64,000 nucleotides of DNA, from the NCBI GenBank assembly GCA_963281255.1, contig OY725502.1, positions 1,302,001 through 1,366,000 on the forward strand. The letters are read 5' to 3'. The position numbers and the translations under genes were made by a program. The DNA comes from Aphrocallistes beatrix (Eukaryota > Porifera > Hexactinellida > Sceptrulophora > Aphrocallistidae). Every line of letters starts with the position of its first letter. Within the stretch, counting starts at the first letter, position 1. Positions 32,401-38,400 of the stretch are shown one piece after another. A model generated the notes under the pieces. That model did not search any database, was not told the DNA's origin, and saw nothing but the letters and a program-made list of their open reading frames with translations.

Positions 32401-35400
32401 AAGACCGTAAAATAATTTTTATTAAAATCTTTCAAATCACACAGAGGTAAGAACGATCTCTCATTTGCGAGTCATGTTATTTTATCTAATGTCTTTTGAG
32501 ATTGAAATGAACCTTAGAGAAACCTAACAATACCTCAGCTATTTGAATGGAATTTCATTGTCATTATCACTAAAATTCTAACCCAAAACCAGACCAATTG
32601 GCACCATTCATCTTTGGATACTCACCAACCACTATGGTCTGACATAATAGTGTGGAATATGAAGGTAGTGATGATTTTATAGTTAAACCACTTTTAGATG
32701 TGTGTAATACTATGTTTTTCGTTCCAAGAATGATATTCAATTCATGACCATATCCATCATCAAATGCTATTGTCCTAAAACCTCACACTATAATATGCGG
32801 ATACATAATTAGCCAACCAACCTAGAATAATAATCTCTACAGGAATTCTAAATATGCTTAGTTGGACATCGGTGCTATATCCGTTATCTACACCGGATGT
32901 TTGACTAAACTTGAGATACAATTTTAAAATATTAGCATTAACTTGTGAATGAATTCAGGAATTGTTGCTTCCTGTGATTGGATATCTCTGTACTACTTGT
33001 AGACTGTTATCCTAATCAAAATAGATACTTTGATAAAGCAATTTAAATATCCAACACTTTATCCCATTCAAGGTACCCAGACAACTGCGCATTCCACAGA
33101 TGTTATTCGGGTTCCCGCCACGTCAATCCTTCTACGGATCAAATCCCGCACATGATTTAATCATGCCAATTACTCGAATATAGCTAAATTTATAGCTGGC
33201 AATACTAATATGATGGTGTAAGCGTTATGAAAGGGGGAAACCATTCAGAGTAGATTTCCTAATATGAAGTACATGACTGTGTTTCCAGATGTTGAAATGA
33301 TTTGAATGGCGATGTGTCAACTGCAGTTACCTTCTTTCTATATACACAGGACAAGTGCGGCGAGCACAAATCAACACACGAATTAGAGTGACATCATTTA
33401 GAGACGTTGCCAGGATTTTTATCTTAGAGGGGCAGATCGGCAAACCCCGCAATACCCATCTGGAAATAAACCTCCCAATGGGACCAGAAGGAAATCCCTG
33501 AAAGCTAAGAGCATTTGTTTCATGCAAAGTCAAAAATATTAGTCAAAAATATTAGAAACATTCAAAAGATTCTGATGAAAGTACGAAGATCATTCTAATA
33601 TGATAACTATTGTGCAAAGAAAATTTCAACATACAAGTGTTGCACTGCCTTAATTAGAATATGTTTAAAAAACCATGAATCAGGAACTTGGTAAGCTTAT
33701 ATGGACTTTGAATGTTGTAGCTAGACATGCTTATCGAATATGCTATCCTATGTAGGATAGATTTTCTATTCTTGTTTACATTCCCTGCTATTTGATAAAA
33801 TTTGCCATATCTAATTGCACATACTAGTACAAGAAACTTTCTAAATTCCTCGAATTATAGTCAGCCTTAACCCGAGCACGTCCAGGAATGTTGAATTGAA
33901 AGTGAAAGTTAATTGAAAGTAAACTGAAAATGAAAGTGAAAGCTGGGTCATTTCTATTTATACCTTTGACCCCAAGTAATCCTCGGGTTAAATCCCTCTA
34001 TGATAACCGTGGTTTGGAGAAAAGAAATGAATGCATTCAAGGAAAGATTTCATTTTTGGTGTAATTTTAGGAAATTTCTTTTATCTCTCCCAACGAGGAT
34101 ATAAAAACATGGAATTAGCCTTGCTGATGTCCCAGAACAAGATGTTGTGGATTGTTACAGTTCTGGATGATAGAATTTCTACAATATTCTCAAAATGTTG
34201 CATTTTATTTTGAAGAGACCTAAATTGGTAAACGACTGCCTTATTCCGTAGGAGAATTCCTTCCTTTTCTACCCAATCCACAACACATGATGGAATGGTC
34301 CGCAATATCTATCTTGACCAGCAATACTTTTGAAGGGTAGCACAATGCATTTAATTATAATATTGTCATTGTTGTTTGTTCTAACCTAAGTCGCTAAGTG
34401 TCTCGAAGCTTTTTAAATTCAACGCGAGTATCACTAAAATATAGCTTTATAGATAAAAATAAATATGAAAATTGATGCAGCGGTTCGGATATGAAATTCA
34501 TTTTGAGTTTTTCGTATCTGATCGGGTCGAATTCAGAGATACGTTTCTAACCATACATTGGTTAATTGGGACTCTGCTTAATTGGAACATCTCAGAACCC
34601 GAATTGGTTCAATTAATTAGAGGCTCTCTGTCTATTGAAAAATCTCCTGAAATGACCCAACCGAAGATTCAATGTTTTGAACTACATCGATCACTTGAAA
34701 GATCTCTTCATGCTATTTCTAACTGGAATCAATGGCTAGTCTGAAGTGTAGTAGGGTAGCGTTATCGAAATACGTACTTGTATGTACGTTTTATTTCAAA
34801 AGTGACCATTTAATCACAACCTTGGTGTGAATTTAACTACGCATCTACGTAGGGAAATGATTCAGTATGTGCATTATAATAAAATCTCTCGCACGATAGT
34901 GAAATATGTTTGAGAAGCATAGAATTGACTTATAAGTTATTAATTCATCAATTATATATTCTTTATTTTTATTAAACTTCAGTCATTTTTAGAATTGGCA
35001 AGTAATTTGAACATGTTTTGAGAAGAATAATCCTGTTTGACCATTGATATCGCCTAACCACCATCCGAGAAATCCCGTATCTTTTGTTATTAGCGTGATA
35101 GCCTGTCCCTTATACAGGTCTAGTTCCATAGGGTCGGAAGCTTCGTAATCATATATCGCGATGTATACCTCACTGCTAGGCGTATAGCTCATGCTAAATA
35201 TGTACTGGTCTGTGCCATTTCTGAGGAAGGTGTTGAAAGGTATGAGCGTTGTTTTTTTTGCGTATGAAGCCTGGAAATATTCTACTAAAGCATAGAGGTT
35301 ATTAACTTTGTGATTTTCATTGAGATAATACATCTTCATACCGTCTCTGTAATGGCAGGAGATTTTGTAATGGACCGTGTTGGAATTATTGCGGACGGAG

Positions 35401-38400
35401 AGTGCGTACTCCCCTGGCCTGTTGATGCTCTCTCGCACTAGAAACACTCCATTATCGCATTCCTTCAGATATTGTTCGGCATCAGAGCGAGATAGATCCC
35501 CCAGAAACCACGGCTCATTCTTAAAGCGACCCATTTTTATTTCGAGCCCCATTCGTTTTGTATAATAGTACTTCCACTCGTTTGGGCCATCATGGCTAGC
35601 GATTGTGTAATCAATGCTCCATTTCTTTTTGCAAAAATATCGCCAGATGACATTGTTGCAAATAATCCTGTAGAGAAGAGTGCACGATTGTCCCATCTGC
35701 AAAACATCCTTGTCTTCAAGATACTTACAAATGAGGATAACTGCATCGATTGGGAGGTTGAGAAAGTAACGGTCGTACTCGTTGAGAGATAATGCCATGT
35801 TGTTGAGTTTAATATTATTTAGTTTTTTCAATGTGCTTTTTGTTTTTAAAAAATAGTTGTGCATATTTTGCTTTTATACAAATTTAATTTATTTCTGTAC
35901 AAGCTCTTACTGATTTATATTTATCTTCTGTGTGTGTATTAGGAATTAGTAATGTCTAATACATTGTGACCTAACCAAGTTTGTACATATAATATTACAT
36001 TGAAAATTTGTATTCTCGGAGATATCGGAGAGGCTCTTTTTGCTATGTTTCTGATATCTCTACGAAGCAAAAATACTTATTCCAAAGCGAATACTTTTGT
36101 GGTAAGGAATTCTTTATAAACAAATTTAGAGTTATTTTCCTAAAAGGAACTGTTTAACGTGCTAATAATTTGATCCCTTCCGCCATTTTATTCTCATGCA
36201 GGATTAGCACAGCTTCAATAGAGAGCCATTGGAAGCCCTGTGCTAGAAATTTGGCATGCAAGCCAATAATAATTGGCCTAAAAATGAATTCGAATATCTG
36301 AGCAAAATATTTACGTATTTTTTCTTTTAGTGAATACATTTCAAAACTTTAAATACGATATTCTTAAACTGTTTTTGCTGTGTGAATATATGTACATTGT
36401 TAACTTTAAATTACTCTCTATTATTTTGCTCGGCTAAATTCTATATCTTGAGTTGTTTCGTTTATTGTAATAATCTTGATTTGATTTATAGTTGAAAGCG
36501 GAGACAAAGAAATTTGGCTCTAGAGGCAACCTAAAGGATCAGTCCTTAATAGACTCCAGCTTCTATTTGAGAGAGAGAGGCTCCTCTGATTTTATCGCTT
36601 ACGAATCTGATGGAGCTCGTCTCGAGGACACAGATCAAGATCCCACTCCCATGGTGGAAGAGTCATATCTGGACGTTATGGACATTAAGGCGGGACAGAA
36701 TACTTTAAGACTGCACAGGAGCCCAATTGGTACCTGGGAGAGGCGAAGGTCTGCTTCGCACCCGCTAGATCCCGACAGTAGCAAGGATGACTCTGTGAGT
36801 TGATTATTCTATCTGAACTGGTAATTAGGCTAACCCACTCAGACAAAACATTTATAAGTTTCAATGTAATCATCTATTCTTATAACCAATTTGCTATCTT
36901 GACATATATATCATTCAACAAGTAGGTGTAGATAGGAACATGTTAGTGTCATGCAAAATTATGTTAATTATGTATGTGAAAGAAATTTTGGAACGGGCTG
37001 AGATCATGAACATATTATTTTAAAATTTTCAGATTCCTTTTCAGCAATGCTACATAGCTTGGCGCCAATGCTATTACAGAATACAATTACAATTATAAAT
37101 CCTTATGCATCTCTCTATCCCAACGAAATACGTCATAATTACACAGAATTCCCGCCGATTAGTTTATAATGCATGAGTAGTTGCATTCTAATGAGCCTTT
37201 GGAATCATCTGTCTCTCCTCCTACTATTAGAACCGTACTACGCCCCAACAGTCCCGACAAGGCAGTGGAGGAATCCACTACTCAGACGCCCCCGCCACTC
37301 GTCCTCGCATTCCTAGGACCATGATGCATCACTACAAGGATGGAGAGGCTGTGGTGCCTCGTGTGTCCGCTCCACGCAAGTACAGCGCCGGCAATACTCC
37401 CCCGGCCTACACACTCGTGCACTATGATTCTGCTCAGTAAGTAATCATCTTCCCAATTATCCTTTGTATTTTAGATAAAAATTGATGAGAGTCATCCAAC
37501 GATTTCTTCAAGCTATGACTTTCCATATTCACTCACGTACATAAAACTAAATGTGTGCAATTTCACGACATTATCACACAATCATGTATTTTATTGGAGA
37601 GATTTGGGAAACACTCCTGCCTTTATTACCGTTTCCAAGATTGTTTGAATCATTTGTAAATCATTCGACTGTTAATAACCTTTAACAAAGCATCAGCTGT
37701 TGTTATTTTGGTTCTTCTAAATGAAATAGAAATGTATGTGTAGATTTATAAAGCACATTTCAACAACTATGTATGTTAGATTGTATTTGTCCATTGTACT
37801 ATGTACAACATGGTAATACTATACAGCCCTCCAGAGATACGCTCCTTGTCTCAAGCCCATACATTTTCATACGCCTAAATCGCTAAATAAAACATTATAA
37901 TAGGATAAATTGTAATATTCTAAATTTTCACGCTCCTAACACTTTGGGCTTAAACCATACGCCTAAAGGAGCGTCTCTTGCTCCTAGATAATCCCTGATC
38001 TACAAATGCCCGTACTAGTAAGCAGTTTAATGCAGATATTATTATATTATGAATTAACATTCAGGTGAGAACTAACAACGTCACACGTTATATATTTTAA
38101 ATGATTTTAACATGCTTTAGACATATTCTTATGAACAAGATGGGTAGGTTTAACATTACGCAAGGATAGAGCAGCCGGTGAATATCGACTACTGGACGAA
38201 ATAATGAAATTAGACAATAGCTATACTATGATCATGCTTGTAGTCACTTTGACTAAAATTATACGAACGTGAGACTGTATCATCTTGAATGTGACGGGCG
38301 AATTTATTTAAGCTGATAATATAACTAATTTCCTTAACCCAACCTTGCATGCATTCTCTGTAAGCTTTTGATTTATTATTAATGTCGTAATGATGGTGCA

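Follow-up and report, generated by a model that had tools for sequence, protein, structure and literature searches.

An F-box–SH2–SH3 gene of the glass sponge Aphrocallistes beatrix with apparent parentage in neighboring VAV and FBXW12-like genes

Introduction

Can a single animal protein carry both a dock for a ubiquitin ligase and a reader of phosphotyrosine, and from which genes could such a protein have been assembled? This question is raised by an open frame in the glass sponge Aphrocallistes beatrix (assembly GCA_963281255.1, contig OY725502.1, positions 1,302,001 to 1,366,000; this whole stretch of 64,000 nucleotides is hereafter the window). A preliminary description had presented the interval 34989..35864 of the window as a single-exon F-box–SH2–SH3 protein, a candidate phosphotyrosine-guided adaptor of an SKP1–cullin-1–F-box (SCF) ubiquitin ligase. 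The comparisons reported here favor, with moderate confidence, a real single-exon gene of this architecture (hereafter the chimera), which would have arisen by fusion of VAV and FBXW12-like genes and most likely encodes a phosphotyrosine-directed SCF substrate receptor.

Domain Architecture of the Open Frame

The interval is filled by a frame of 291 codons plus a stop codon, so that the coordinates of the preliminary description stand; the strand, which it had missed, is the minus strand (35864 to 34989), and on the plus strand, frame 1 contains stops throughout. A Pfam search of the 291-residue frame, a check that the same description had proposed, returned four significant matches, all above the gathering scores and far beyond chance: F-box-like (PF12937, E 2.2e-7, residues 35-79), F-box (PF00646, E 7.6e-6, residues 34-75), SH2 (PF00017, E 2.3e-19, residues 119-197), and SH3_1 (PF00018, E 2.3e-12, residues 235-280). 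The three domains are found in one frame in the order previously given, the F-box and SH3 strings quoted for them both occur in the translation, and the arginine of the FLVRES motif is indeed present as R144. This arginine binds phosphotyrosine in SH2 domains, and R126, H165, and K167 occupy other usual phosphotyrosine-contact positions.

The single-exon structure also fits the sequence: Met23 lines up with the initial Met of the F-box/WD40 parent introduced below, the end of the frame coincides with the end of VAV, and an AATAAA lies past the stop codon. Upstream of Met23, the frame stays open as far as Met1 (35864). Many genes of glass sponges have a single exon, with 12,409 single-exon transcripts and 19,578 genes reported for Aphrocallistes vastus (PMC10282587).

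The single-sequence AlphaFold2 model, with a mean predicted local distance difference test (pLDDT) of 39.7, was set aside. A second model, built on an alignment of 22 rows in which parts of the F-box/WD40 rows are misplaced, reached a mean pLDDT of 59.2 and a predicted template modeling score of 0.34, low values that make the domain arrangement unreliable. By blocks of ten residues, pLDDT in this second model was 66-81 in the SH2, 73-87 in the SH3, and 50-68 in the F-box. The top Foldseek matches were GRB2, CED-2, and PLC-gamma, and the SH3C domain of CIN85 fitted the model with a template modeling score of 0.86 by target length; the 50 matches listed comprised SH2 and SH3 proteins, and none was named as an F-box protein. 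Searched against the sequences of solved structures, the F-box half matched FBXW7 (E 7.3e-5) and, more weakly, FBXW12 (E 0.0093).

Two Neighboring Genes as Apparent Parents

Searches of the sponge's own genome covered 100.5 Mb in 28 contigs; the counts of F-box, SH2, cullin, and tyrosine-kinase matches given here are lower bounds. After the chimera itself, the top match was an F-box/WD40 gene on contig C6 (chimera residues 13-117, E 1.1e-19), and the second-ranked was a VAV gene on the same contig (residues 115-200, E 1.2e-17), which gave a further match at residues 235-287 (E 8.6e-9); all three C6 matches lie inside 1.5 kb. The VAV gene encodes CH, RhoGEF, PH-type, C1, SH3, SH2, and SH3 domains, of which the C1-SH3-SH2-SH3 portion occupies one frame of 453 amino acids. 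It comes first at the locus and is followed, after a gap of 510 bp, by the F-box/WD40 gene, itself in one frame, head-to-tail on the same strand. This order is opposite to that in the chimera, where the F-box precedes the SH2-SH3. Among at least 30 F-box and at least 62 SH2 matches, only the chimera and these two C6 genes paired the two domains within 10 kb, the next pair being 11.3 kb apart.

The two similarities meet at residues 115-117. By BLASTP, the chimera shares 39% identity with the C6 F-box/WD40 protein in an alignment of 101 amino acids that ends at residue 116; with the C6 VAV, the identity is 31% in an alignment of 257 columns (E 2e-33). At the DNA level, the VAV similarity sets in at codon 117 (E 1.9e-6). 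Residues 23-116 correspond to the N-terminus of the FBXW12-like protein and residues 117-287 to the SH2-SH3 end of VAV, the FBXW similarity continuing beyond the F-box through the linker to the junction. The F-box half scored 73.5 bits with the C6 gene and 37.6 bits with the next F-box of the same genome (20 of the at least 30 F-box loci). An Oopsacas minuta protein (64%) is among the nearest relatives of the F-box parent, and the O. minuta ortholog of this parent is named FBXW12 in one source. For the orthologs of both parents in three other assemblies, the longest contigs are of pairwise equal size (P0006/P0068, 1,071,658; P0007/P0066, 740,324; P0008/P0065, 47,817), from which we infer common contigs and hence an old VAV–FBXW linkage. 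In the chimera, the rear part of VAV apparently follows the front part of an FBXW12-like F-box/WD40 gene, and these apparent parents are neighbors still. The domain order and the phosphotyrosine pocket of the preliminary description are thereby complemented by an origin that it had missed.

The parental locus itself (L009, 664-6845) merits a separate remark. The short spacing of VAV and the FBXW12-like gene on one strand, taken together with the trans-spliced leaders reported in Aphrocallistes (PMC10282587), makes shared transcription of the two genes possible.

Phylogenetic Placement of the Two Halves

For the F-box tree, 20 of at least 30 matches were fetched, and the chimera, its parent, and 12 of the 18 others (those with at least 8 bits) were entered; for the SH2 tree, 40 of at least 62 were fetched and 36 entered, two partial and two identical rows being left out. 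The F-box half grouped with FBXW relatives (support 91/88), and the SH2-SH3 fell on the VAV side of the split between VAV and GRB2-GADS (support 99/98). Within the VAV side, the chimera stood at the base of the SH2-SH3 tree, a position that is not firm (62/80).

Maintenance of the Reading Frame

Compared with the VAV of the same genome over the 168 codons of the SH2-SH3, codon positions 1, 2, and 3 of the chimera were identical at fractions of 0.57, 0.67, and 0.31, and the corresponding values against the FBXW parent over the 93 codons of the F-box half were 0.53, 0.67, and 0.40. This pattern includes constraint on the branches of the parents, which the open frame does not. At identical, mostly fourfold residues, third positions matched in 8 of 35 cases (SH2-SH3) and in 5 of 11 (F-box half); synonymous sites between the chimera and its parents are near saturation. 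With 0.05, 0.1, and 0.2 hits per site, 16%, 3.5%, and 0.2% of 2,000 runs of a simple neutral simulation kept the frame open, and with 0.3 none did; the simulation contained no insertions or deletions, which would close frames sooner. Because the frame is open despite near-saturated synonymous change, selection has very probably kept it.

The long branches of the chimera, whose sequence changes fast, would be consistent with a gene that is dead or dying, a silent relic in which only chance has left the frame open. We judge this very unlikely: simulated neutral frames close far earlier than the observed synonymous divergence, a possible polyadenylation signal follows the stop codon, and a second copy (P0001, on a European Nucleotide Archive record of 900,045 bases) differs in a single residue, F34V.

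Route of Origin

A tandem duplication or a DNA circle, followed by a move, would be expected to swap the gene order in this way. We infer that a segment of about 1.5 kb, running from the start of the VAV SH2 to the end of the F-box, was directly duplicated or formed a circle, the junction of which would place the F-box before the SH2-SH3 and would supply, in one step, the start of the F-box gene, the stop of VAV, and perhaps a promoter; the copy would later have moved, or the circle have been reinserted, onto contig C16. Chimeras formed by tandem duplications that ignore gene borders have been described in Drosophila yakuba, with 76 in 15 lines (PMC5460883). Retroposition is a possible route but not a needed one, since both parental pieces already sit in uninterrupted frames. 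For the same reason, a splice-made chimera is unlikely.

Predicted Function and Comparison with Known Systems

The comparison with the families of both parents indicates what was gained and what was left behind. The chimera has in common with FBXW12-like F-box/WD40 proteins the N-terminal F-box and the following linker, and it differs from the FBXW family in bearing SH2-SH3 in place of WD40, no WD40 being found in the frame by Pfam. With VAV guanine nucleotide exchange factors, it shares the C-terminal SH2-SH3; the Pfam search of the frame found no CH, RhoGEF, PH, C1, or first SH3 domain, so that exchange activity is not expected, and residues of the SH3 groove are changed. With only the SH2 and one SH3 in its frame, the chimera is derived from VAV and is not a VAV family member.

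Candidates for the requisite partners are represented in the genome: SKP1 has one match, cullins have matches on several contigs, and a tyrosine-kinase profile, which also catches serine/threonine kinases, has at least 151. In the proposed mechanism, the F-box would dock on SKP1-CUL1 and the VAV-type SH2 would bind tyrosine-phosphorylated proteins. Since the substrate arm is that of VAV, the targets should overlap VAV-docking sites, and the SH3, with its degenerate groove, would play a non-canonical part. The outcome would be ubiquitylation, with signaling shut off where VAV would be recruited. By analogy, the chimera is a candidate terminator of VAV-type signaling, as SOCS proteins are for cytokine signaling.

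Animal proteins that tie phosphotyrosine to ubiquitin include CBL, with its SH2-like domain and RING; the chimera likewise has an SH2-type reader, combined with an F-box where CBL has a RING ligase module. SOCS2 makes the link through an SH2-type reader as well (PMC6557900). SOCS proteins join their SH2 to a SOCS box and thereby to CUL5, whereas the F-box of the chimera points to SKP1-CUL1, and no SOCS box was detected in it among Pfam matches up to E 1. Beyond animals, the amoebozoan Dictyostelium FbxB also combines F-box and SH2 in one protein, a likeness drawn here by description only, and is assumed to direct proteins to degradation (PMC3085826); the parentage of the chimera from VAV and FBXW argues for an origin independent of FbxB.

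No described animal F-box/SH2/SH3 protein turned up among the papers listed by literature searches, which covered chiefly non-subscription papers, in agreement with the preliminary description. In a review of VAV evolution, the term F-box is absent from the main text, and invertebrates and urochordates with genomes sequenced up to 2019 are stated to have a single Vav family gene, Monosiga excepted (PMC6562523). In the Oopsacas genome paper, F-box occurs once, in the methods, and SH2 nowhere (PMC10280926). The earlier proposal of a third animal solution to linking phosphotyrosine with ubiquitin rests on one species. In its complete form, the scenario would be that of a dedicated SCF receptor made from two neighboring genes with a swap of order by duplication or circle, its VAV-derived SH2 sending VAV-docking proteins to ubiquitylation and so providing a further animal link beside SOCS and CBL; we put this fuller version forward tentatively.

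Weighing the Evidence

Several observations weigh against a maintained VAV–FBXW fusion with the function of an SCF receptor. The SH2-only tree (44 rows) gave the chimera no settled place; its position as sister of the own-species parents was neither supported nor rejected (approximately unbiased test, p 0.45 and 0.35), so that the trees cannot date the fusion, and the program issued long-branch warnings for the F-box-half and SH2-SH3 trees. A comparison of the flanks of the chimera with the parental locus revealed no remnant of intergenic DNA, the sole match with E below 0.001 falling in the SH2. A homolog search with the chimera among 227 candidates matched only P0001; the search was insensitive and can overlook relatives that share about 45% identity, as illustrated by the VAV piece of the same genome (P0063), which was missed although within the length limits and alignable pairwise at E 2e-33. 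In a strict retention test, 36 of 56 invariant sites of the SH2-SH3 were kept, compared with 53 of 110 variable sites with a parent-seen residue (p 0.035, marginal), and the F-box half, with 22 of 36 and 28 of 48, gave no significant difference (p 0.49); a looser test against the own parent only, biased to significance, had yielded p 0.004 and 2.7e-5 and is superseded. Lastly, the conserved Pro and Tyr of the SH3 ligand groove are lost, residues 281-284 being FSKH in the chimera and PANY in seven of seven VAV rows compared, which makes ordinary PxxP binding doubtful.

The indecision of the SH2-only tree and the basal position on the VAV side would suit independent domain shuffling, in which genes other than the VAV/FBXW neighbors supplied the F-box and the SH2-SH3 and the likeness to those neighbors is incidental, as would the identity to the parents of only about 37-49% and the one-piece match of GRB2-like genes to the SH2-SH3 (65.7 bits). 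We nevertheless consider shuffling unlikely, as the two best relatives adjoin and, the chimera apart, form the only such match pair at a distance of 10 kb or less, VAV outscores the GRB2-like genes (69.1 and 40 bits) and is preferred at the well-supported split, and the FBXW likeness reaches past the F-box to the junction.

The retention test and the SH3 groove bear on the main rival, a decoy adaptor without ubiquitylation, whose SH2 would occupy VAV docking sites and dampen signaling by competition, its F-box not binding SKP1 or being otherwise used. The degenerate groove is what a protein losing its effector links might show, and the F-box half is both the less conserved by the strict test and the weaker in Pfam; on the other hand, the F-box exceeds both Pfam cut-offs, finds the F-box of FBXW7 among solved structures, and is conserved at codon position 2 well above position 3. 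The decoy is thus a less probable reading, to be taken seriously, and the phosphotyrosine-directed SCF receptor remains the one that we prefer.

Other Features of the Window and the Genome

Features of the chimera and their positions in the window
Feature	Coordinates	Strand	Basis
Whole F-box–SH2–SH3 frame, 291 amino acids and stop	34989..35864	-	Open reading frame, Pfam
Met23, likely start	35796..35798	-	Aligned with start Met of FBXW12-like parent; choice inferred
F-box, residues 34-79	35628..35765	-	Pfam, profile search
Fusion junction, residues 115-117	35514..35522	-	FBXW similarity stops at 116; VAV DNA similarity from codon 117
SH2 domain, residues 119-197	35274..35510	-	Pfam, profile search
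R144 codon, FLVRES phosphotyrosine-binding arginine	35433..35435	-	Sequence; role from general SH2 knowledge
SH3 domain, residues 234-287	35004..35165	-	Pfam
SH3 groove residues 281-284, FSKH versus PANY in VAV rows	35013..35024	-	Alignment
AATAAA, possible polyadenylation signal, 15 nucleotides beyond stop codon	34968..34973	-	Read from sequence

Elsewhere in the window, all on the plus strand, adhesion-type-receptor-like frames were found at 3928-7045 and 10018-19022, with a 7tm_2 domain at 6134-7042 (Pfam) and, in the neighboring frames, stretches resembling Ig, fibronectin, and lectin domains by eye. Leucine-rich-repeat-like stretches with a coiled tail, CEP78-like by eye and with no Pfam match at 0.001, lie at 20236-22599. 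At 28232-30166, a single frame encodes a protein of 644 amino acids that has several hydrophobic stretches and matched nothing in Pfam.

Across the genome, tyrosine-kinase profile matches cluster on contigs C1, C9, C10, and C15, many in long uninterrupted frames, which suggests a local kinase expansion. Three SH2 matches with identical translations in long frames (L031-L033; C1, 10733410-10790823) probably stem from recent duplication of a single SH2 kinase gene. Contig C28 (17,996 bases) is mitochondrial: its COX1 has 11 in-frame TGA codons, and in the compared part none of the nine AGR codons falls on R, the residues opposite them being S (4), G (3), N (1), and A (1), while five of the seven CGN codons do fall on R. 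One further frame of C28, recognized by eye, we take to be atp9; the combination of atp9 with AGR read as serine is in keeping with the mitochondrial DNA of glass sponges. The mitochondrial DNA of O. minuta carries atp9 (PMC4520895).

Implications

If the preferred reading is true, the chimera would be a natural gene fusion equivalent to the targeted degraders built by chemists, in which a ligase dock is joined to a phosphotyrosine reader, and a sponge would thereby have a second gene derived from VAV. As both parents can be identified, lie side by side, and seem to be linked in related species too, it may become possible to date how a new signaling protein was born, and its likely targets, the proteins with VAV-docking sites, would be predictable.

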